A DNA stretch of 21,312 bases from Candidatus Aerophobota bacterium (GTDB lineage Bacteria; Aerophobota; Aerophobia; Aerophobales; B3-G15), in NCBI GenBank assembly GCA_030607715.1, contig JAUWJM010000013.1, positions 1 to 21,312 of the forward strand, given 5' to 3'. Each line of letters starts with the position of its first letter. Positions within the stretch are counted from its first letter, which is position 1. The notes below the pieces were generated by a model. The model did not search any database. It saw nothing but the letters and a program-made list of their open reading frames with translations, and had not been told where the DNA came from. Both the position numbers and the translations under genes were made by a program. Positions 1 through 15,766 of the stretch are shown here, piece by piece.

Positions 1-264
1 GCCAAATTTGTACTCCTGGCAGTCAATGTAGCGGAAAGGGAAAGCAAGGTTAGGTCCTTTGCAGAAGATAAAGATAACAGATTGACCTTTCCAGTACTTT
101 TAGACACAAAAGGAGAAATATTTCATATGTATGGGGCGAGATATTTCCCCAGTAATCTTTTTATTAATCCTGAGGGTGAAGTTATAGGAGTGGCTATTGG
201 AGGAAGAGAATGGGTTAATGAAAAATTTTATAATTTTTTGCAAAAGCTGTCTGAAACAGAGTAA
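1..264 (+). CDS. TlpA/ResA-like thioredoxin-fold protein, C-terminal part
   Basis: The reading frame is open from base 1 to a TAA at 262-264, so only the last 87 residues are in the window. They match the C-terminal half of the AhpC/TSA-TlpA-ResA group: a strand reading FVLLAVNV, the segment TFPVLLDTKGEI, then the cis-proline region YFPSNLFINPEGEV, and a final helix. In this family the product is a disulfide reductase or peroxidase, often tethered outside the membrane. The redox CxxC motif and any signal peptide would lie upstream and cannot be seen. The gene ends 15 bp before the tRNA gene and belongs to the ancestral chromosome flanking the island. Confidence 0.8.
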   Translation, partial: AKFVLLAVNVAERESKVRSFAEDKDNRLTFPVLLDTKGEIFHMYGARYFPSNLFINPEGEVIGVAIGGREWVNEKFYNFLQKLSETE

Positions 265-279
265 AAGATTTAAACTCAA

Positions 280-354
280 GCCGACGTAGCTTAAAGGTAG
301 AGCAGCTGATTCGTAATCAGCAGGTTGTAGGTTCAAATCCTATCGTCGGCTCCA
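280..354 (+). tRNA. tRNA-Thr (anticodon CGT), CCA encoded
   Basis: A full cloverleaf folds. The acceptor stem GCCGACG (280-286) pairs with CGTCGGC (344-350). The anticodon stem GCTGA (305-309) pairs with TCAGC (317-321) around the loop TTCGTAA, giving anticodon CGT at 312-314, which reads ACG (Thr). The T arm is GTAGG, loop TTCAAAT, CCTAT. The discriminator is T351 and CCA (352-354) is encoded. Its last 17-22 bases are copied at 4377-4393 and 6499-6520, so the gene has been the integration target of mobile elements. The copy here is complete, so the insertions have not damaged the tRNA. Confidence 0.96.
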
Positions 355-504
355 GACTGATAAAACCTTATGGGTCCGTCGTTTCGGTGCTCTGTTAATA
401 CTTCCTTAGACTACGACCGATTAGAAATCGCTGAGATTACCCAAATTTACCTTAATTTATCTTTAGGGGATGCCATCCGGGGGTTTTTGTGCAAGGAAAT
501 GCTG

Positions 505-533
505 TTGACTTTGCTAAAAAACGATGATATGCT
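505..533 (+). promoter_or_regulatory. Sigma-70-type promoter of the 54-aa membrane protein
   Basis: A -35 box TTGACT (505-510) and a -10 box TATGCT (528-533) are separated by 17 bp. Transcription would begin near 540, just upstream of the AAGGAG ribosome site at 549-554 that serves the gene at 562. The interval 355-504 shows no convincing gene. Confidence 0.5.
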
Positions 534-561
534 GTCTAAAAATAACCAAAGGAGATAGGCA

Positions 562-726
562 ATGGAAAACTTATTCTTCGTATTTTTCTGGTCCGGGCCA
601 ATTGGTCTTGGCATTTTTCTGGCATTATTGGGCATCTTCATCTGGCTACTGGCAAAAGCTGATGAGATAACTAAGCGCACAAAAGCAATGGCAAAGGAAA
701 AGAAAGTCGGGAAGGAAAAGGAATAA
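562..726 (+). CDS. Small single-pass membrane protein (54 aa), unknown function
   Basis: ATG at 562 follows a strong AAGGAG site at 549-554 and a plausible promoter, and the frame ends at TAA 724-726. The product has a hydrophobic span at about residues 5-31 (FFVFFWSGPIGLGIFLALL and on to IWLL). A strongly basic tail of about 20 residues follows, rich in K and ending KVGKEKE. The shape is one membrane helix with a charged cytoplasmic tail. I recognise no family. It is the first gene after the tRNA in element A. Small toxins, holin-like proteins and accessory membrane proteins all share this build, so no function is assigned. Confidence 0.6.
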   Translation: MENLFFVFFWSGPIGLGIFLALLGIFIWLLAKADEITKRTKAMAKEKKVGKEKE

Positions 727-1385
727 TTACCTCTCACGAGAGTATATTGCGAACCATAATCAAATCCCCTCAATGATACGCACTGTGACCAGGTAATAAG
801 TTGTAAATCATGTTCTGCCTAACGGTAGTAAATAAAGTACCTCGTTCTGTTTTTAATCCCAACCAGCCACCGGCAATAAGTTGGATAGACCTGGAATCTC
901 CACCAGAACCCTCCAAACAAATTTGACATTTTATTTCTTTGGTGACATTATATAAAAAAGAGAATATACAGAGTAGACATACAGAAATTATTATTATATC
1001 CTTTTCAAACTAATCCCACAGACCATACTACAGATTAAGAACTCACACTTTTCTTATTTTACCTTTATTTAGAATAAACTTATTTTATTAATAAGGCTTT
1101 CCAAAAAGATAAGCTTAAAATTATTGGTAGAGTAGTGAGAGTTAATAAGAAATTATGAGGAGGTGAGATTTTTTATTTTCCCTCCAATCTTATTCTTATT
1201 ATATTGGACAACAAGGATAATCCTAGAGTAATTGGGAAAGTGGTTAGAAAAGATTAAGAGATATTGAAAAGAGGTAAGTGGTGAGAGTAATAAAGAGGAC
1301 GTGAGGTCTTTTATAGAAATAGCATAAAAGATAAAAAATATCCACTTACAGAAGAATAAATTTATGATATAATAAGGAGACTAAT
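727..1385. other. Gene-poor, apparently decayed left part of element A
   Basis: No intact gene is visible on either strand over about 660 bases. One frame carries two short coding-like pieces with related endings. Residues KIIGRVVRVNKKL stop at 1156-1158, and further on in the same frame RVIGKVVRKD stops at 1255-1257. The endings resemble the C-terminus of LexA/S24-type repressors, but they are too short to be sure. Possible promoters are TTGACA (922-927) with CATTAT (946-951), which is weak, and CTTACA (1345-1350) with TATAAT (1368-1373) at a 17-bp spacing. The second would start a transcript so close to the next gene that the AAGGAG site at 1374-1379 would be nearly lost. Confidence 0.4.
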
Positions 1386-2039
1386 ATGGCTGAGGTAATA
1401 GTTGATAAGTTGGTAGTTAGCATCTCTTATGCTCAGAGTGCTTTTGGAATATTTGCAGGAAAGCGCAACTTTTTGAGGCTATAAGACAGATCTACGAATT
1501 TCCAAAATTTTGGGTAGCTAATGCGCAAGATAAGATAAAAGTAGAAGACCCAGAAAAGGAATATCTATTAAGCGTATCTTATCGGGAAGCAGGATTCAAG
1601 GCTACAAAAAACCCTGACGTGAGAAATATAGCTCAAACTATAGAGAAGTTGTTTCGTAAGGTCAAAAATATATTGGATATAACTTTACTAAATAATTTTG
1701 AAGTTGATTTGATGGGAGAGATTGTATTAGCTGAAAGTCAACCAGCTGAAAACTGGCTGTTTAATAAAGAAAATAGAGAAAAGATTTTCTAAACCCCTGA
1801 GCGTAAAGGTCGGATTCTTATCCCCAATCATTGTATATAGTAGTCCCGAATATAAAGATGGCATTATTACTGTCCAACTGATACCACTGGTTACAGAGCA
1901 AGGACATTGGCAATCAGCACTTCGTTATAAATCAAAGAAACGTAACTACAAGGCAGACCTTGTAGTTAGTGAAATAGAAACAACTATCAAATTTTTAGCT
2001 GATGAATATGATGGATTGTCAGAACGTATTTTGTTATGA
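1386..2039 (+). pseudogene. Frameshifted unknown gene (about 217 aa if repaired)
   Basis: ATG at 1386 follows AAGGAG (1374-1379). The first frame (MAEVIVDKLVVSISYAQSAF...) runs into TAA at 1482-1484. The frame shifted by -1 at the T-run near 1470-1474 continues with EAIRQIYEFPKFWVANAQDK and stops at 1790-1792. The original frame then resumes with a similar coding look (PLSVKVGFLSPIIVY...) and stops at 2037-2039. Two compensating single-base indels would therefore restore one protein. I recognise no family; it looks soluble, with charged helices and a beta-rich C-terminal part. Whether the breaks are real decay or assembly errors cannot be told from the sequence. It sits directly upstream of the restriction-modification genes. 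Confidence 0.55.
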
Positions 2040-2074
2040 ATTAATATATAATATAACAATTTTGGAGGTTAGAA

Positions 2075-2137
2075 ATGACTAAATTTATGAAGGAATTTTT
2101 AGAGAAAAAGAACTTTAGCAAAGAATTTGAAAGCTAA
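2075..2137 (+). CDS. 20-residue leader or truncated regulator, coupled to the methyltransferase
   Basis: ATG at 2075 has a very strong ribosome site (TTGGAGG, 2062-2068). The frame encodes MTKFMKEFLEKKNFSKEFES, and its TAA overlaps the methyltransferase start as TAATG (2135-2139). A TATAAT at 2047-2052 could be the -10 box, but no well-placed -35 is seen. The sequence resembles the first helix of small XRE-type antitoxin or controller proteins. It may be the stump of a controller gene, or a short leader that delivers ribosomes to the methyltransferase, which has a weaker site of its own. It is probably translated; its function is unknown. Confidence 0.5.
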   Translation: MTKFMKEFLEKKNFSKEFES

Positions 2138-3039
2138 TGGAAAATACTATGATGGAGAAAGCAAAGATGTTAAAAAGAATAGACATTAACTTTAGAAAAA
2201 CCTGTTCTTGCCCTGATAATCATATAAACTGCCTTACCGCTAAAGAGTGGATTAAAGGCCAAGTCGCTATTTGGGAGTTATATTATGAAAAAAGAGATAT
2301 TAGAGACAAAGATGTCCATCCAGCTGTATTTCCAATCGCTTTACCTAAAAAATGTATTCAGCTTTTTACTCATAAAGGAGAGTTAGTTCTGGACCCTTTC
2401 GTAGGTATTGGGAGCACTCTCGTTGCGGCGCAAGATTTAGAAAGGAACGCTGTAGGATTCGATCTTAACCAAGAATACATCGATTTTATCAATAAGAGGT
2501 TTACTCAAACACAGCTAAACTTTGGGAGAAATACAAAACAGATCGCGATCTGTGATGACGCAATCAATATCCCAAAATACCTTGATGAAGAAATTGTATC
2601 TTTATGCGTTACATCACCTCCATATGCCAATATGCTAAATCACAAAAGATTAAACAAAAGTCTTCGTAGTGATCTTCGCAAAAACAGACATTACAAAAAA
2701 ATTCAGCAATATTCAAATAATCCACGAGATCTTGGTACGATGAGACTTAAAGAATATATTGACGCACTTGCAAAAGTTTATGAAGGGGTATTACCACTCT
2801 TGAGGCCAAAAGCTCATTGCGTAATTAATATTAATGACCTGTGGGAGAATAATCACAGGTATCCAACGCATAGTTATATTATTGAGGCCATGGAAAAGGT
2901 GGGTTACGAACTTAGAAATATAATCATCTGGGATAAGAAAAACTTAGTAAATAGGGTTGGTATTTTCGGATGGCCAAGTAATTACATCACTCTTAGCACA
3001 ACCTTTGAATACATAATTGATTTTTGGAAGAAACCATGA
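2137..3039 (+). CDS. Type II DNA methyltransferase, N4-cytosine type
   Basis: The 300-residue protein has the AdoMet-binding motif DPFVGIGS at residues 86-93, preceded by a HPAVFPIALPKK segment (motif X-like). The catalytic motif TSPPY lies at 159-163, the form typical of exocyclic amino methyltransferases and commonest in m4C enzymes. Motif I comes before motif IV. The N-terminus has a cysteine pair (CSC) followed by NHINCLTAKEWIKGQ. The gene starts inside the stop of the 20-codon frame (TAATG) and overlaps the endonuclease at ATGA. It should protect the host against the adjacent endonuclease by methylating the same site. The MvaI/BcnI enzymes target CCNGG-type sites and pair with m4C methylases, which fits. 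The exact target is unknown. Confidence 0.85.
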   Translation: MENTMMEKAKMLKRIDINFRKTCSCPDNHINCLTAKEWIKGQVAIWELYYEKRDIRDKDVHPAVFPIALPKKCIQLFTHKGELVLDPFVGIGSTLVAAQDLERNAVGFDLNQEYIDFINKRFTQTQLNFGRNTKQIAICDDAINIPKYLDEEIVSLCVTSPPYANMLNHKRLNKSLRSDLRKNRHYKKIQQYSNNPRDLGTMRLKEYIDALAKVYEGVLPLLRPKAHCVININDLWENNHRYPTHSYIIEAMEKVGYELRNIIIWDKKNLVNRVGIFGWPSNYITLSTTFEYIIDFWKKP

Positions 3040-3743
3040 TGAGCTATTCTGAATTGATAGAAAGATTAAAAGCAATAAAGAAGATGGGTTATATTGGAAC
3101 CCATAGAACAGGCAATGCAGGTATAGGAAAAACCCTAGAGGACCTCTTGGGAATAACTGAAAATAATATACCTGGTCCAAACGCTGCAATGATTGAATTG
3201 AAATCTGCAAGGAAAAATGTTTCAAGCATGCTTACCTTATTCACAAAATCACCTCTTCCAGCAAGAGTCAACTCTGTTCTACTACAAAGATTTGGTTACA
3301 TGTTCTCAAGGGGAAACAAAAGAAAAGAATTACACACTACAGTAAATGCTATAAAGTATAATCGATTGAGAGGAAAATCCGGCTTTAAAATTGACATCAA
3401 AGAAGACAAAATAAATCTCATAAGTGACCAGAATGAAATTTTATGTTATTGGGATAAAGAAATACTAAAGAAATCCTTTGAAACAAAACTCCCAAAATTA
3501 TTATATGTGAAAGCAGAAACAAAAGGTAGGGGTTCTAATGAGGAGTTTTGGTTTAATGAAGCATGGTTGTTAAACGGTTTTAATTTTAATAACTTTACTC
3601 AATTGTTAAAGGAAGGAGTGATTCTTGTTGATATAAGGATTGGACAATATCCTAATGGTAGAACCCATGACCACGGCACAGGATTTAGAGTTTTTCCCGA
3701 TAGTTTGGATTTATGCTTCAGCTCTCGGCACAGGATAATGTAA
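3036..3743 (+). CDS. MvaI/BcnI-family type II restriction endonuclease
   Basis: The protein shows the landmarks of the MvaI/BcnI family: GYIGTHRTGNAGIGKTLEDL, then LLGITENNIPGP, IELKSARKN, SMLTLFTKSPLPAR, and near the C-terminus RTHDHGTGFRVFPD. About 235 residues is a normal full length. Known members act as monomers that nick each strand at CC(A/T)GG or CC(C/G)GG. The E-x-K pair is E54/K56. The aspartate expected about five residues earlier appears as N49, which could reduce activity. Starts at ATG 3036 or 3039 sit on the methyltransferase stop with GGAAG at 3026-3030; a TTG at 3024 is also possible. Overlap suggests coupled translation after the methylase. Confidence 0.88.
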   Translation: MMSYSELIERLKAIKKMGYIGTHRTGNAGIGKTLEDLLGITENNIPGPNAAMIELKSARKNVSSMLTLFTKSPLPARVNSVLLQRFGYMFSRGNKRKELHTTVNAIKYNRLRGKSGFKIDIKEDKINLISDQNEILCYWDKEILKKSFETKLPKLLYVKAETKGRGSNEEFWFNEAWLLNGFNFNNFTQLLKEGVILVDIRIGQYPNGRTHDHGTGFRVFPDSLDLCFSSRHRIM

Positions 3744-3749
3744 TCTTAC

Positions 3750-3823
3750 TGGCAGTTCTGGATTGGGCTGATTTAGGTGGAGAAATTATCCTATTTTGAC
3801 AAAACTTTTTCTTTGTTTATAAT
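3750..3823 (+). repeat. Shared module P, copy A (20-bp box plus promoter)
   Basis: A box TGGCAGTTCTGGATTGGGCT (3750-3769) is followed by TTGACA (3796-3801), a 16-bp spacer and TATAAT (3818-3823). Copy B at 5040-5114 has the same box with 3 transitions out of 20, and the same promoter layout 37 rather than 36 bp downstream. Sequence between box and promoter is only loosely similar. Copy A precedes the HicB-like gene; copy B precedes the toxin-antitoxin pair. Within the module the promoter is near perfect and should be strong unless repressed. Confidence 0.65.
3796..3823 (+). promoter_or_regulatory. Consensus sigma-70 promoter of the HicB-like gene
   Basis: Both boxes are exact matches (TTGACA and TATAAT) with a 16-bp spacer. 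Transcription would start near 3830, only a few bases before an in-frame ATG at 3836, which favours the later ATG at 3884 as the translation start. Confidence 0.8.
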
Positions 3824-3883
3824 TATCTATGATTAATGCTAATAGATTTTTATAAAAAAGGACTGAAGGGAGGTAGAAGTAAA

Positions 3884-4171
3884 ATGCTCTCCAATAATGG
3901 CCATCCTCTTAAATTTAAAGTCCGTATCATTATTGAGCCTGATGGTGATGGATTTCATGCTTATTGTCCCGCATTAAAAGGACTACATGTTGATGGAGAT
4001 ACAATAGAAGAAGCTCTAAAAAACGCTCAAGATGGAGCAACAGCATATCTTGAATCTTTGATTCAACATGGTGACCCTATTCCTGTGGGAGTTGAAACAA
4101 AACCAAGAAGGCGACCATTTGATATTCATCACAAATCTCAAATTAAAGATCTGCAATTAGCAATCCCATGA
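3884..4171 (+). CDS. HicB-like antitoxin-family protein (orphan)
   Basis: The core FKVRIIIEPDGDGFHAYCPA followed by LKGLHVDGDTIEEALKNAQD is the partial RNase-H fold of HicB/UPF0150 proteins. About 95 residues is normal for a short HicB. The start at 3884 is chosen because GGGAGG (3868-3873) precedes it; an in-frame ATG at 3836 lies too close to the predicted transcript start. In classic HicAB systems HicB binds and silences the HicA ribonuclease and represses the operon. No HicA-like frame (a small double-stranded-RNA-binding fold) is seen on either side, and no extra HTH domain is obvious. The C-terminus is basic (KPRRRPFDIHHKSQ). It could be an orphan antitoxin or a regulator. It is the last cargo gene of element A. 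Confidence 0.8.
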   Translation: MLSNNGHPLKFKVRIIIEPDGDGFHAYCPALKGLHVDGDTIEEALKNAQDGATAYLESLIQHGDPIPVGVETKPRRRPFDIHHKSQIKDLQLAIP

Positions 4172-4188
4172 AATTTTCCCCTCATATA

Positions 4189-4393
4189 TAAATCAAACAG
4201 AATGTTCGGTTAATCTTGTAACGAATTTGTAACAAAAATAGTCCAAAAAGAGGCAAAATTAAGACAAAAAGATATAAATTTAGAGTGATGAAAAAAGGGC
4301 TAAAAGTAAGGATTGATAAGGAAAACAAGCTAATAATAAGCATAGTAAACAAATCCTAAAAACCTACCTTATCGACTCCTATCGTCGGCTCCA
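4189..4393 (+). repeat. Shared module R, copy A (205 bp, right end of element A)
   Basis: This segment aligns without gaps to 6316-6520, offset 2127, with about 12 mismatches by eye (about 94% identity). It contains two TTGTAAC direct repeats 11 bp apart (4216-4222 and 4227-4233), an A-rich stretch, a short open frame ending at 4357-4359 (MKKGLKVRIDKENKLIISIV then NKS), and the tRNA-Thr 3' copy at its right edge. One helical turn between repeats is typical of recombinase or excisionase arm sites. I infer it is the recombination arm of the elements, perhaps with the tail of a lost gene. Confidence 0.8.
4377..4393 (+). other. Internal attachment site (tRNA-Thr 3' end copy, 17 bp)
   Basis: The bases TCCTATCGTCGGCTCCA are identical to tRNA positions 338-354. 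The bases just upstream diverge from the tRNA (TCGACT against TCAAAT), so this is not a tRNA gene. It separates element A from element B and should be able to act as attR of A and attL of B. Confidence 0.85.
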
Positions 4394-4531
4394 AGTCGTT
4401 TAATCCCGTGTAATAAGCTGATTTCCTAATTATAATGACCAAAATAAGACCAAAATTGTTATGGGAGTAATCAGAAAAGTAGGAAAATTGATTTATCTTT
4501 ATTATTCTCAGTATACACACAGAATGTTGTG

Positions 4532-4870
4532 TCAAATTGGATGGGCAAAAGAAGGAAATAAGAAAAGGGGGCTTGTGAGTGGGGGAATAAAATCGACCAC
4601 AAAAACTTTTGAATTATAAAGAGTCTTCATTCTCCCCGTAATCAAATGAACACTACTATCAGGTAACTGCTGCATATTTTCAGAAGATTTGCAAAAGATT
4701 TTGTCTGCAAAATCCGAAGAGATTGGATTTTCTATGTATTTAACTTCCTGTTCTTTAGGCAATCCTTCGTATAATTTACTTATGTAAAAAGTAGTAGAAT
4801 TATGATTTATTCTACCTGGAGAGCCAAAAGAACTTGTTCGAGTTCCCTTCTTTCTTAGATTAGTTTTCAT
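4532..4870 (-). pseudogene. Truncated DNA methyltransferase (N-terminal fragment)
   Basis: Read on the minus strand, ATG at 4870 follows GGAGGGAG. The first 77 residues (RKKGTRTSSFGSPGRINHNS, then SKLYEGLPKEQEVKYIENPI, IFCKSSENMQQLPDSSVHLI) match the N-terminus of a widespread group of N4/N6 site-specific methyltransferases. In those proteins the catalytic TSPPY motif follows immediately. Here homology ends at about 4640, and the frame continues with unrelated residues to a stop at 4532-4534. No catalytic or AdoMet motif remains, so the protein cannot methylate DNA. It looks like the scar of a deletion that removed the body of a restriction-modification system. The 4394-4531 stretch to its left shows no gene. 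Confidence 0.75.
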
Positions 4871-5039
4871 GTTAATTCTCCCTCCAGTAATCCAACCACC
4901 TCTTATATGGGTTATAATCTTGTTTGGTTTTTTGCCAAAGTATCTCAATAGCCCGAGATTCCTTATTCTTAACTAAGTCTGACAATGCTTCCTTAGTTAT
5001 AAAGAATAGATGATTCTCAAATTTTCGTTTTATTTATGT

Positions 5040-5114
5040 TGGTAATTTTGGATTGGGCTATAAGAAGGGAAGAGAGCCACCTTTCCTTGACAACAAACTT
5101 TTGTGATATATAAT
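5040..5114 (+). repeat. Shared module P, copy B
   Basis: The box at 5040-5059 matches copy A at 17 of 20 positions, with transitions only. The promoter follows at nearly the same distance. This copy heads the toxin-antitoxin operon of element B. Confidence 0.6.
5087..5114 (+). promoter_or_regulatory. Consensus promoter of the toxin-antitoxin operon
   Basis: TTGACA (5087-5092) and TATAAT (5109-5114) are exact matches with a 16-bp spacer. The transcript would start near 5120, leaving a leader of about 200 bases before the first gene, with a terminator inside it. Confidence 0.78.
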
Positions 5115-5263
5115 AATTATATAAATATATAAAAGGTGATGACCTCTTTTTGCAGATCTGTATATTTAGAGGTATCAAGTTCCAGTGAATCCGGGTGAAG
5201 GAAAAAGGTATGTTTGAAATAACCTCCTCATTTTTACTTCGTGTAACAGTGAGCAATAATCTC

Positions 5264-5300
5264 CCCGGTGTTACTTCGTGTAACACCGGGCAATTTTTTT
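5264..5300 (+). terminator. Intrinsic terminator/attenuator in the leader of the toxin-antitoxin operon
   Basis: CCCGGTGTTAC (5264-5274) and GTAACACCGGG (5280-5290) form a perfect 11-bp stem with loop TTCGT, followed by CAA and seven T. A second copy of the inner part, TTACTTCGTGTAACA, lies upstream at about 5234-5248, and its arms could pair with either arm of the terminator. A 30-codon open frame starting at ATG 5210 runs across both copies and stops at 5300-5302. The position between a strong promoter and the antitoxin gene suggests attenuation; this is inferred from sequence alone. Confidence 0.7.
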
Positions 5301-5321
5301 AAAGAAGGGGGTGAATAAAAA

Positions 5322-5933
5322 ATGGGAATCATTTCCAAAGCAACACTGCAAAGATTGTTTTTATTGGGTGTTTTAGAGCAATTCAAAAATGGGATCTATG
5401 GAGCCAAGCGTTTGCAGAAAGTTATATATTTCATCGAAAAAAATACTGGCATACAACCTTTTGGTTACAAAAAGTACCTGCATGGTCAATATAGCGAAGA
5501 ATTGGAGGAAATCAAAGAGCAACTTATGTCTATGTGTTATATTTCTGCTATTCCACTTGATAAAGGGCAGGGGAATAAATATTCCCTAACAAATAAAGCA
5601 AGCCGATTTGATACCATTCTGGAATCAATCTTTCCTGGTAGCAAACAAAAGATAAAGTCCATGATTAAAGAAATTGGATATTTATCTGAGGAAGATCTTG
5701 TTGAATTAGCTTATCAAAATTCTAATCTCAAAAAGGTAGCTTTTGATAAGACAATCATAAAGAGCGATTTACCAGAAAAACTTACAATAAAAAATTTGAG
5801 TGATGAAGAATGTGAGAATATTGAATTAACATTGAACCCAAATTTTATTCATTTTTCGACAAAAATAAAAGAGGCTCTTGATTCTGGAAAACTTGACATA
5901 GATAAAGTAGAAAAAATAGCCCACCTTGTTTAA
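5322..5933 (+). CDS. Panacea/DUF4065-like putative antitoxin
   Basis: The 203-residue protein carries, at about residues 28-90, GAKRLQKVIYFIEKNTGIQP followed by FGYKKYLHGQYSEELEEIKE. This is the signature layout of the Panacea (DUF4065/SocA-like) and YwgA-like proteins: a helix with RLQK, an aromatic patch, then a hGxYSxxL motif. Panacea proteins are antitoxins found beside many unrelated toxin folds. The remainder is helical and charged and may hold the toxin-binding part. ATG at 5322 follows AAGGGGGTG. The gene overlaps the RelE-like gene by 8 bp, the order antitoxin then toxin. The family match is from motif memory, so a YwgA-like assignment is an alternative. Confidence 0.7.
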   Translation: MGIISKATLQRLFLLGVLEQFKNGIYGAKRLQKVIYFIEKNTGIQPFGYKKYLHGQYSEELEEIKEQLMSMCYISAIPLDKGQGNKYSLTNKASRFDTILESIFPGSKQKIKSMIKEIGYLSEEDLVELAYQNSNLKKVAFDKTIIKSDLPEKLTIKNLSDEECENIELTLNPNFIHFSTKIKEALDSGKLDIDKVEKIAHLV

Positions 5934-6318
5934 ATTTCTTGCGCATGAAATCTTTCAAAATATGGCTTCGCAATTATTAGATATATATCCCTCTATGAAA
6001 AAACCATTAAATAAGCAAATTGAAAAAGCTTGTGCTGATCCTTTTAGAGCAGGTAGGCCCATGCGCGATCTACCCCCTCATTTGCAAGGATATCTCTATA
6101 GATTATGGATTAGGGGACCAAGGGGATTTAGAATGATTTATTTTGTTTATCGTGAAAAATCCATTGTTTTAGGAACATATATCTCGCAAATAAAGAGAAA
6201 AAATCTTAATTACAATAAAGCTCCTTGGTTAGAGAGCACTAATAAAATTTATGATGATCTTATTACTGGAAACAAATCAAAATTTAAATTGATTGATCCT
6301 CAGGAGGGAATATCTTAA
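5926..6318 (+). CDS. RelE/ParE-superfamily putative toxin
   Basis: The 130-residue product contains DPFRAGRPMRDLPPHLQGYL followed by YRLWIRGPRGFRMIYFVYRE and a strand ending YISQIKRK. The order (small helical start, G-rich turn before a leucine-proline segment, RLxxxGxxGFRxIYxV strands) is that of RelE/ParE-fold toxins, which cleave mRNA on the ribosome or block gyrase. TTG at 5926 lies 8 bp inside the upstream stop; an ATG at 5962 is a plausible alternative that removes 12 residues. The tail of about 35 residues beyond the core is longer than in minimal RelE. Its partner is the upstream Panacea-like protein. Activity as ribonuclease or gyrase poison cannot be told here. Confidence 0.72.
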   Translation: MFKFLAHEIFQNMASQLLDIYPSMKKPLNKQIEKACADPFRAGRPMRDLPPHLQGYLYRLWIRGPRGFRMIYFVYREKSIVLGTYISQIKRKNLNYNKAPWLESTNKIYDDLITGNKSKFKLIDPQEGIS

Positions 6319-6520
6319 ATCAAACATAATGCTCGGTTAATCTTGTAACGAATTTGTAACGAGAATAGTCCAAAAAGAGGCAAAATTAAGACAAAAAGAT
6401 ATAAATTTAGAGTGATGAAAAAAGGGCTAAAAACAGGTGTTGATAAGGAAAACAAGCTAATAATAAGCATAGTAAACAAATCCTAAAAACCTACCTTGTC
6501 AAATCCTATCGTCGGCTCCA
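6316..6520 (+). repeat. Shared module R, copy B (205 bp, right end of element B)
   Basis: Gap-free partner of 4189-4393. The TTGTAAC pair lies at 6343-6349 and 6354-6360, and the short open frame at 6415-6486. Differences cluster in one stretch of seven bases (codons VRI in copy A, TGV here) and around the attachment core. The module begins inside the stop codon of the RelE-like gene. Confidence 0.8.
6499..6520 (+). other. Right-hand attachment site (tRNA-Thr 3' end copy, 22 bp)
   Basis: The last 22 bases of the tRNA (333-354) are repeated exactly here. This is longer than the internal copy, as expected if it is the chromosomal remnant of the original tRNA end. leuS begins 28 bp further on. 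Confidence 0.85.
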
Positions 6521-6547
6521 AAAATTAAACTACTTTAGGATGGAGAA

Positions 6548-9010
6548 ATGAGTTTTCAATATAAACCACAAGAGATTGAAAAAAAATGGCAAAGATATTG
6601 GGAGGTTAATAAAACTTTTTCTTCTTGGTTAAGAAAAGACAAGGAAAAGTATTATCTCCTGGAAATGTTTCCCTATACCTCGGGAGGTATTCATATGGGA
6701 CACGTGCGCAATTATGTTATTGGAGATGTTCTGGCTCGATACAAGTGGATGAGGGGATTTAATGTTCTTCATCCCATTGGTTTTGATGCTTTTGGTTTAC
6801 CTGCTGAAAATGCTGCTATAGAAAAGAAGATTCATCCCCGAGAATGGACTTATCGCAATATCAAGATTTTAGAAGGTCAGTTAAAGCAATTGGGAATCTC
6901 TTATGATTGGGAAAGAGAAGTTATTACCTGTGATGAGAATTATTATCGCTGGAATCAATGGTTTTTTATTAAGTTTTATCAGGAAGGATTAGTTTATCGA
7001 AAAAAAGCTTCAGCTAATTGGTGTCCTGCTTGCAAGACCGTTTTAGCTAATGAGCAGGTAACAAATGATAAATGCTATCGGTGTGGCTCATCTGTTCAAC
7101 AAAAGGAACTTACTCAGTGGTTTTTCAAAATTACCAAATATGCTGATGAGCTTTTAGATGAAATTAAGAATTTAGTTCACTGGCCTCCTACTGTAAAAAA
7201 AATGCAAATTAACTGGATTGGCAGGAGTGAAGGAATGGAGATTAAATTTAAGTTAGCGGAAAATTATACTGAAATTCCTGTGTTTACTACCCGGCCGGAT
7301 ACCATCTTTGGAGCCACTTATCTTGTTTTATCTCCTCATCATCCTTTAACTGAAAAAGCTATCAGGAGGAATGTAAAGATTAAAGACGAAGTAAAGAGGA
7401 TGAAAAAAGAACAGTTAATTAGAGGAGATATAGAAAAAAGGGGTATTATCAGCGGTCTGTGGGCAGTAAATCCGGTAAATGAAGAGAAAATCCCCATCTG
7501 GATAGCTAATTATGTTTTGATGGAATATGGAACAGGAGCTATTATGGCTGTTCCTGCTCATGATGAACGAGATTTTGAATTTGCTAAAAAGTATGGTTTA
7601 CCTGTAAGAGTTTTTGTATCTCCTCCTCATTGGAGCTCTGATCAGGATAATCCAAAAGAGGCTTACATAGAGGAAGGTACAATGGTAAACTCAGCTCAGT
7701 TTAATGGTCTTCCCAGCGAGCTTGCCCGAGAGAAAATGAGTAAATGGATGCTTGAGCAGAAAATGGCAAATCACAAAGTAAGCTATAAACTGAGGGATTG
7801 GTGTATCTCTCGTCAAAGATATTGGGGCACTCCTATTCCCATTATTTACTGCTCCCGATGTGGTGTGATGCCTGTTCCTGAAGAGAACCTTCCTGTAGAG
7901 CTGCCCTTTGATGTCCAAATAACTGGCAAGGGAGGGTCTCCCTTAAAGAAGGTAGAGTCTTTTGTAAAGTGTCTGTGTCCTAAGTGCGGGAACGAGGCAA
8001 GAAGAGAAACCGATTCCATGGATACCTTTGTAGATTCTTCCTGGTATTTCTTGCGCTATACCAGCCAGGAAAATGATCATATTCCCTTTAATAAGAAAGA
8101 GGTAGATTACTGGATGCCAGTAGATCATTATGTTGGAGGCATAGAGCATGCGATTTTACATCTCTTGTATTCCCGTTTCTTTACCAAAGCCTTGAGGGAT
8201 TTAGGTCTTATTGAAACAGGAGAGCCTTTTAATAGATTACTCAACCAGGGGATGGTAATAAAGGATGGGGCTAAAATGTCTAAGTCCAGGGGAAACGTTG
8301 TTACTCCTGAACAGATGATTAAAGAATATGGAGTGGATGTAGTAAGGGGATTTATTTTATTTGCTGCTCCTCCCGAGATCGATTTAGAGTGGAAAAGAGA
8401 AGGACTGGAAGGGATACATCGTTTTTTAAATAGAGTTTGGAAATTAGTTATTTCTAATTTGAAAGAAAAAAGTCAATGGGAATCTGGGAAGTTTGAGAAA
8501 ATTTATTTTCCTGGAAAAAACAAAGAGGAGATTGAACTCCAGCGGATGGTTCATAAAACCATAAAGAAAGTTACCGAGGATATAGAGCAGCGTTTTCATT
8601 TTAATACAGCCCTGGCCTCTCTTATGGAACTGGTAAATTTTCTCTACCAGTACTCTTTTAAGAATAGCCTTATCTATAAGCAGACTTTGCAAGTTCTTCT
8701 CTTGCTTCTTTATCCTTTTACTCCTCATATCTGTCAGGAACTGGCGGAAAGGACAGGATACGAGGGTGATTTATCTAAATATCCCTGGCCCGAATACAAG
8801 GATAAGTTCCTCAAAAAACATCAGGTTACCATTGTTATTCAAATTAATGGAAAAATAAGGGACAGAATGGTTATCTCTGCAAATGAGGAAAGAGAAATGG
8901 TGGAAAGAGAAACTTTAAATAGAGAAAAAATTAAAAGATATACCCAGGGAAAATCCATAAAAAGAACAATCTATGTTCCTCTTAAGCTTCTTAATATTGT
9001 AGTCCAGTGA
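6548..9010 (+). CDS. leuS: Leucyl-tRNA synthetase
   Basis: The 820-residue class I synthetase attaches leucine to tRNA-Leu in the cytoplasm. The ATP-site motifs are HMGH (residues 49-52) and KMSKS (576-580). A zinc knuckle CPAC...CYRC begins at residue 159. The editing domain shows TTRPDTIFGATYLVL and MAVPAHDERDFEFAKKYGLP, needed to hydrolyse mischarged tRNA. A second CSRC...CPKC pair lies in the insertion before the catalytic half. Length and order are those of complete bacterial enzymes. ATG 6548 follows GGATGGAG. The gene lies directly behind the island, so its upstream DNA now comes from element B, and no clear promoter is seen there. Its transcription may read through from upstream. Confidence 0.97.
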   Translation: MSFQYKPQEIEKKWQRYWEVNKTFSSWLRKDKEKYYLLEMFPYTSGGIHMGHVRNYVIGDVLARYKWMRGFNVLHPIGFDAFGLPAENAAIEKKIHPREWTYRNIKILEGQLKQLGISYDWEREVITCDENYYRWNQWFFIKFYQEGLVYRKKASANWCPACKTVLANEQVTNDKCYRCGSSVQQKELTQWFFKITKYADELLDEIKNLVHWPPTVKKMQINWIGRSEGMEIKFKLAENYTEIPVFTTRPDTIFGATYLVLSPHHPLTEKAIRRNVKIKDEVKRMKKEQLIRGDIEKRGIISGLWAVNPVNEEKIPIWIANYVLMEYGTGAIMAVPAHDERDFEFAKKYGLPVRVFVSPPHWSSDQDNPKEAYIEEGTMVNSAQFNGLPSELAREKMSKWMLEQKMANHKVSYKLRDWCISRQRYWGTPIPIIYCSRCGVMPVPEENLPVELPFDVQITGKGGSPLKKVESFVKCLCPKCGNEARRETDSMDTFVDSSWYFLRYTSQENDHIPFNKKEVDYWMPVDHYVGGIEHAILHLLYSRFFTKALRDLGLIETGEPFNRLLNQGMVIKDGAKMSKSRGNVVTPEQMIKEYGVDVVRGFILFAAPPEIDLEWKREGLEGIHRFLNRVWKLVISNLKEKSQWESGKFEKIYFPGKNKEEIELQRMVHKTIKKVTEDIEQRFHFNTALASLMELVNFLYQYSFKNSLIYKQTLQVLLLLLYPFTPHICQELAERTGYEGDLSKYPWPEYKDKFLKKHQVTIVIQINGKIRDRMVISANEEREMVERETLNREKIKRYTQGKSIKRTIYVPLKLLNIVVQ

Positions 9011-12569: not shown

Positions 12570-12597
12570 TTGACAGCTTTTTTAAATCTGATATAAT
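12570..12597 (+). promoter_or_regulatory. Consensus promoter of the pdxA-ABC operon
   Basis: TTGACA (12570-12575) and TATAAT (12592-12597) are exact, with a 16-bp spacer. The transcript would begin near 12604, about 50 bases before the dehydrogenase start. Confidence 0.85.
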
Positions 12598-14845: not shown

Positions 14846-15766
14846 TTGCTAAGTTTTATTTTACATGTTTTAGAAGAAGGGATGTTATTTGGTGTTATGG
14901 CCCTTGGTGTTTATATAACTTTCAAGGTGCTTAATTTTCCTGACCTTACAGTAGATGGAAGCTATCCCCTGGGGGCAGCTGTATCAGCTATTATGATTAT
15001 CAAAGGAGTAAATCCTTTTCTTTCCCTTTTAGTTGCTGTTTTAGCTGGAATTTTAGCAGGTCTTCTTACCGGTTTTTTGCATACTAAATTAAAAATTGCT
15101 CCTCTCTTAGCTGGAATCCTGACTATGATTTGTTTATATTCAATAAATTAAAGGATTATGAGGCGTCCTAATATATCTTTATCCAGATATTTAGGATACG
15201 AAACTGTTATAACTATTTTAAACAGGGTTAATTTTCCTCTGAATAAGGTGTATCTTACTCTCTTGTTTTTCTTTATAATTTTAGTCTCTTTAAAATTTTT
15301 ATTGGATATCTTTTTGCATACTGAAATAGGTTTATCTCTTCGAGCTACAGGGGATAATGAACAGATGATCAGGTCTCAAGGGGTAAATACCGATACTACT
15401 AAGCTGATTGGGTTGAGTTTATCTAATGGTTTAGTTGCTTTATCCGGAGCTCTATATGCCCAGTATCAAGGTTTTGCTGATGTGGGGATGGGAATTGGTA
15501 TGATTGTAGCAGGGCTTGCTTCTATAATTACTGGCGGAGCTTTAGTTCGTGGTAGAACTATTGGTATAATGACCTTTTCTGCTATTGTTGGAGCTATAGT
15601 TTATAGATCTGCCTTAGCGGCTGCCTTGAAGTGGGGATACAATTTTGGGTTTAAACCCACTGACCTAAAGCTTCTTACAGGTTTATTGGTTATTATAATT
15701 CTTTCTTTTCCTGTCATTCGGAGTAAACTTAAAATTAGGGAGCCTAAAGTTGTTAAGAATCACTGA
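14846..15766 (+). pseudogene. ABC transporter permease (TrpY-like) with an in-frame stop
   Basis: One continuous frame encodes a permease of the same transporter family, about 305 residues with some 8 membrane segments. It includes FKVLNFPDLTVDGSYPLGAA in the first part and SLRATGDNEQMIRSQGVNTD and VAGLASIITGGALVRGRTIG in the second. A TAA at 15149-15151 (codon 102) interrupts it in the phrase LYSIN-stop-RIMRRPN. Relatives have leucine there, so a single TTA-to-TAA change explains it. No good ribosome site precedes the ATG at 15158. TTG 14846 has AAGGAG upstream. It is either a real nonsense mutation, an assembly error, or suppressed. Confidence 0.8.

Follow-up and report, generated by a model that had tools for sequence, protein, structure and literature searches.

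The closest described counterparts of the locus reported here are the cis-mobilizable elements (CIMEs) of Streptococcus salivarius and S. agalactiae, which in the passages cited are att-flanked segments of 1.2 to 13 kb that carry cargo but no integrase, recombination, or transfer genes and that can lie in tandem at the 3′ end of one gene (PMC7563491, PMC5704250). The islands of Dehalococcoides are likewise stacked downstream of a single RNA gene, ssrA, with 20-bp copies of its 3′ end, and the integration module, in the part of that work used here, is not found in all of them (PMC3146451). The defense islands I23, I44, and I55 downstream of the tmRNA gene in Pseudomonas combine, in the sections referred to, an RNA gene end, direct repeats, phage defense cargo, and no autonomous transfer (PMC12595487). 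In a 21,312-bp stretch from a Candidatus Aerophobota bacterium (assembly GCA_030607715.1, contig JAUWJM010000013.1, positions 1 to 21,312; the whole stretch is referred to as the window), we found two adjacent units between a tRNA-Thr gene and leuS in which no integrase was detected. These units match the features of CIMEs, with mobilization in cis after accretion of an incoming element and descent by deletion from an integrative and conjugative element (ICE) or integrative and mobilizable element (IME) being putative for them; they differ in that the array includes neither an ICE nor an IME, in belonging to another phylum, and in their defense-type cargo. Unlike the module-bearing Dehalococcoides islands, which use the serine recombinase DsiB (PMC3146451), the units have ends that look like tyrosine integrase arms, and unlike I23, I44, and I55 (PMC12595487) they do not encode a tyrosine integrase such as IntY. 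With moderate confidence, we interpret them as two successive insertions into tRNA-Thr by an arm-using tyrosine integrase, now present as integrase-less CIME-like remnants. The novelty is modest, since CIMEs and the stacked ssrA islands were already known; however, a limited literature search gave no integrase-less tRNA defense cassette family in print, and a similarly limited one on the mobile elements of Aerophobota gave no title on tandem integrase-less tRNA insertions. The locus thus documents such insertions, with defense-type cargo, in a little-studied phylum.

The insertion target is an intact tRNA-Thr(CGT) gene at positions 280 to 354 of the forward strand (ARAGORN; Rfam RF00005), while leuS, the host gene adjoining this tRNA in relatives, lies at 6548 to 9010 on the same strand, as established by synteny. 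Its product is 63 to 71% identical to LeuS of three metagenome-assembled genomes titled Candidatus Aerophobetes and 87% identical, over the first 490 residues, to that of G017, a genome of the same phylum and the closest relative compared. G017 has an empty site, with 27 bp from tRNA to leuS, the same distance that separates the last core copy from leuS in the window, from which it follows that 6.2 kb were inserted at tRNA-Thr. The flanks can be aligned across the junction (86% identity from the core into leuS, 99% for the tRNA), and the G017 DNA upstream of the tRNA is unlike that of the window. A 19-nt version of the site (at most one mismatch) was present as a single copy in 15 of 17 Aerophobota genomes and never as two. 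At 14 of these 15 loci leuS was within reach, 31 to 285 bp from the site (measured to the first matching residue) in 13 of them; at the fifteenth, in G009, leuS was not found in the stretch searched. One genome, G015, has an open reading frame (ORF) of 347 amino acids between tRNA-Thr and leuS (L127, 3235 to 4278), with leuS 1.1 kb from the site and only one 19-nt copy.

The 22-nt 3′ end of the tRNA occurs three times on the forward strand of the window, compared with none expected in 100 shuffles: at 333 to 354 (attL side, 22 of 22 bases), at 4372 to 4393 (the middle, attP-like junction, 20 of 22 bases, with 17 bp unbroken at 4377 to 4393), and at 6499 to 6520 (attR side, 22 of 22 bases). Unit 1 (355 to 4393) is the 4,039 bp between the first and second core copies and unit 2 (4394 to 6520) the 2,127 bp between the second and third, and the units are bounded, as CIMEs are, by directly repeated copies of the target gene end (attL and attR). 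The right arm of each unit, together with its core, forms a shared block of 206 bp (4189 to 4394 and 6316 to 6521, forward strand), the two copies of which align without gaps and with 12 mismatches (94% identity); beyond it the units have no other clear sequence in common. An earlier note, based on the sequence alone, had described three tRNA ends with only the 17 bp in the middle, a gapless shared end of about 205 bp with about 12 mismatches, and units of 4.0 and 2.1 kb, all of which agrees with these measurements, the middle copy extending to 22 nt with two mismatches. The left edge of the block is sharp, identity in 20-base steps being 0/20 just left of 4189 and 17 to 20 of 20 inside, while on the right it drops to 10/20 and then 6/20 from 4389 on and is lost past the CCA end of the core. 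A different gene adjoins each copy, and both right ends start at the same base. Considered as a gene, the block has a 45-codon frame in which four codons differ between copies, all nonsynonymously, and so shows no sign of coding constraint; as a known RNA it was also rejected, an Rfam scan of 250 to 6600 matching the tRNA only (E of 0.5 or better).

Upstream of cores two and three, the block contains GTCCAAAAAGA GGCAAAATTAA GACAAAAAGAT, three arm-like sites at an exact 11-bp spacing (4241 to 4273 and 6368 to 6400, forward strand). Downstream of core two stand GACCAAAATAA GACCAAAATTG, the left-arm pair of unit 2, with GACCAAAAT sites 11 bp apart (4437 to 4458, forward strand). The middle core has, then, 11-bp-spaced GNC(C/A)AAA repeats on either side. 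The triple GNCMAAA pattern was found twice in the window, once in each block, and not at all in 1.70 Mb of other loci, in 400 Markov windows, or in the 17 Aerophobota genomes. Scored with a matrix derived from viral sites only against 351 null tiles, both right-arm triples exceeded every tile. So did the left pair of unit 2, a comparison that is circular in that the viral sites had been picked with that pair. Unit 1 has no recognizable arm at its left edge (355 to 754), 16/351 null tiles scoring as high with pairs and 105/351 with triples; both units have thus kept the right arm and only unit 2 a recognizable left one. Judged by sequence, the stretch from 4241 to 4458, a tRNA-end core with arm-like repeats on both sides, resembles an attachment site of an arm-type tyrosine integrase and is shaped like attP (arm-core-arm), as the meeting point of two tandem elements would be. 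Arrays of GNCMAAA spaced by 11 bp beside a tRNA end may also offer a signature by which orphan ends can be recognized without an integrase gene.

The arm motif was also found in viral contigs. A strict version of the left-pair pattern gave three loci, each adjacent to a tyrosine integrase gene (the same integrase in two of them), and a looser one, GACCAAAATNNGACCAAAAT, gave 20, among which an integrase ORF lay at most 230 bp away in six (L137, L138, L139, L152, L156, and L158) and two more (L144 and L151) were downstream of tRNA-Met. With 8 of the 20 loci placing the motif by a tyrosine integrase gene or by a tRNA, the preferred reading of the 206-bp block is an integrase arm plus core. Merging near-identical loci by eye leaves 14 distinct sites, five of them att-like. 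In L137 the integrase stop is separated from the array by a stretch resembling a tRNA 3′ end (recognized by eye), and this tRNA-like core has the integrase gene on one side and the GACCAAAAT pair on the other; in L139 the integrase ends before the pair, and no core was identified there. Like the window, the temperate phages L137/L138 and L144/L151/L158 have 11-bp-spaced GACCAAAA arrays that flank a tRNA 3′-end core on one side (the cores partly assigned by eye), but they come from larger viral contigs, and in L137, L138, and L158 the integrase stands beside the array. In viral contigs the core 17-mer turned up three times, twice in phage tRNA-Thr genes and once in a phage integrase-like gene. 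At the last of these, on a GC-rich phage contig (L140, 5589 to 5605), the 17-nt tRNA-Thr end falls within what by eye resembles a tyrosine integrase ORF, either by chance or as an internal attachment site.

No integrase was detected in the window. With a profile built from 32 tyrosine recombinases, no match there had an E value below 1.4, and three viral integrase ORFs outside the profile (L152, L156, and L158) scored 9e-35 to 7e-14; the best value in the window with a poorer first profile was 0.76. Searching the window by tblastn with the same recombinase set produced short, weak matches only, the best of which (0.002) came from a non-integrase frame in the set. Among the main ORFs scanned with Pfam there was no recombinase family, and so no serine recombinase integration module; nor was there a relaxase, coupling protein, or VirB4 in that scan, which covered the small ORFs in part. 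The units therefore lack the integrase of their own that characterizes an IME or a mobilizable genomic island. That they hold no recombinase had been proposed in the earlier note, and the profile search bears this out.

The cargo of unit 1, all on the forward strand, begins with an apparently frameshifted ORF (1368 to 2039) in pieces that lie in different frames (stop-to-stop ORFs), the two pieces scanned having no significant family match. It is followed by an intact-looking N4/N6 DNA methyltransferase (2137 to 3039; PF01555, 7e-30; PADLOC MTase_II, 7e-119) and an intact-looking MvaI/BcnI-type restriction endonuclease (3024 to 3743; PF15515, 7e-50; R.MvaI, 1e-29; R.BcnI, 1e-21), and then by a HicB-like protein (3836 to 4171; PF15919, 7e-7; phrog_497, 1e-12) for which no HicA partner was identified. 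Relatives of the endonuclease were found at three viral loci (43 to 52% identity), in 22 plasmid records (all below 60%), and in 1 of the 17 Aerophobota genomes (75%), and the methyltransferase has one viral relative at 77%. The latter is on a 60-kb virus contig (L135, 8007 to 8897), where other methyltransferase-like ORFs can be seen nearby by eye. The Aerophobota genome G016 has the restriction-modification (RM) pair at 77.6% DNA identity; its neighbors there, judged by eye, look like another methyltransferase gene and a serine recombinase at the end of the contig. There is no tRNA on that contig and no match to the block in that genome, so the MvaI/BcnI-type pair also occurs without these ends.

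Unit 2 carries two fragments on the reverse strand, a methyltransferase N terminus (4532 to 4948; PADLOC PDLC03350, profile positions 2 to 80 of 312, 7e-21) and the C terminus of a ThaI-type endonuclease (4872 to 5033; PF15514, positions 163 to 203 of 203, 6.5e-10). On the forward strand are an antitoxin candidate with weak resemblance to the latter half of DarG (5322 to 5933; PADLOC PDC-M19A, 4e-7, and DarG, 1e-5; NCBIfam DarG, E value of 0.001, below the cutoff; no Pfam match) and a weak candidate for a RelE/YoeB-like toxin (5926 to 6318; TIGR02116, 0.013; phrog_1213, 0.09; RelE chains, 0.26 to 0.74). Their structure models (pLDDT of 76 for the antitoxin and 64 for the toxin) matched no solved structure at an E value of 0.001 or better, the best hits being to chains from a DarTG complex (0.015) and a HigBA complex (0.48). 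Four antitoxin relatives were present in a protein collection (40 to 87%) and none in the viral contigs or the 17 Aerophobota genomes; the toxin has two relatives, at 61 and 89%, and the closest relative of each is probably on one and the same 1,693-bp contig. The RM and toxin-antitoxin (TA) character of the cargo, suggested in the earlier note, is thus upheld by family matches, which for the toxin-antitoxin pair are those of a weakly matched candidate. Two adjacent hairpins at 5218 to 5299, between a promoter-like box and the antitoxin gene, have a fold z-score of −3.8, and the second is a terminator-like stem of 11 pairs before a T run; they are possibly an attenuator of the operon.

In the reading that we favor, two mobile elements would have entered the 3′ end of tRNA-Thr one after the other through a tyrosine integrase using arm-type sites, unit 2 first and then unit 1 next to the tRNA, an order that we infer, the core on the leuS side being unchanged. 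The integrase would later have been lost, leaving both units without integrase and transfer genes, to persist as CIME-like remnants with defense-type cargo; any present mobility would depend on accretion with an incoming element or on an integrase acting in trans. Decay of the units is indicated by the lack of a recognizable left arm in unit 1 and by the broken-looking genes in both. Several observations weigh against this reading. Two independent decays are unlikely to leave right ends stopping at the same base, and no ICE, IME, or prophage remnant was recognized in the ORFs scanned, so that descent from one is not established. Moreover, 12 of the 20 viral motif loci have neither integrase nor tRNA, three of them being inside coding frames (L148, L153, and L159) and another, L155, being on the same contig as L152. 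Taken as pairs, the right-arm sites are unexceptional, 14/351 null tiles being equally high.

The same facts can be read as the trace of a non-autonomous lineage with a fixed right end and interchangeable small cargo, mobilized by an integrase supplied in trans from a phage or ICE, which we consider possible but doubtful. The right ends of the two units have a common starting base, with 0/20 identity outside and a different gene beside each, the place occupied by the integrase in L137 and L139 is taken in the window by the HicB-like gene or the toxin candidate, and unit 2 retains both arms within 2.1 kb. Each unit also has a perfect TTGACA-16-TATAAT box 36 to 37 bp after GGATTGGGCT (3760 and 5050), upstream of its last gene or genes, and among 2,000 Markov pairs, 2 scored as high as this pair of regions (3750 to 3823 and 5040 to 5114). 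The window has another box of this kind at 12570, and 1.89 Mb of other loci held three boxes and one GGATTGGGCT. A promoter block common to both units is suggested by this likeness, which, however, is not significant when all tiles are compared with all others: it scores 55, the next pair of tiles 53, and one pairing of a unit 1 tile with the chromosome 59. The lack of a recognizable left arm in unit 1 also speaks against such a lineage, as does the failure of the viral, phage, plasmid, and genome searches to reveal a further member. Slightly more doubtful is its most specific version, a cassette lineage with a fixed right end of 183-bp integrase arm plus core and a small slot for TA or RM cargo at the position of the integrase in related phages, mobilized by the integrases of passing phages and stacking at one tRNA. 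Were a helper integrase found, it would show that defense cassettes can spread without a recombinase of their own. The earlier note had pictured the units as such small defense cassettes; insertion into tRNA-Thr (from the empty site), two att-bounded units, no integrase, defense-type cargo, and arm-like repeats all stand, and a family moved by a recombinase from elsewhere is doubtful, no further member having been found and unit 1 looking eroded.

Looked for in related genomes, as the earlier note had suggested, the block (copy 1) was in none of the 17 Aerophobota genomes, and a shallow search of 784 others, which scored at most two candidates per genome, gave no credible copy among the matches listed. 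These genome searches, all run without a positive control, found copy 2 in none of four genomes reached through loci and none of 400 from the phylum of a Dehalococcoidia genome (G020). It had matches in 10 of 384 from the phylum of an Omnitrophota genome (G019), and the eight of these that were inspected were rejected, since they span 26 to 61 columns within long ORFs, in loci of about 2 to 3 kb that have neither a tRNA nor an integrase. The block had no match in phage and plasmid records, a 37-base block pattern had none in viral contigs, and no tRNA was near Aerophobota integrase matches in 30 loci of 2.1 to 3.5 kb.

It is improbable that there was a single insertion, with homologous recombination or gene conversion then duplicating its terminal 206 bp inside the locus: the copies are indeed 94% identical and alone in being clearly common to the units, but the middle site has arm-like repeats to its left and right, as a junction of two elements would, and the copying would have had to end exactly at the tRNA end. 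An assembly chimera of two strains, conceivable in that the window was judged from one assembled contig alone, is very improbable, since the middle core has two mismatches to the tRNA in its 22 bases, and the longest unbroken run that they share, 17 bases, is shorter than the usual assembly words.

Elsewhere in the window, a gene that by eye resembles a permease (14846 to 15766) appears to be split by one in-frame TAA at 15149 to 15151, its halves lying in the same frame.

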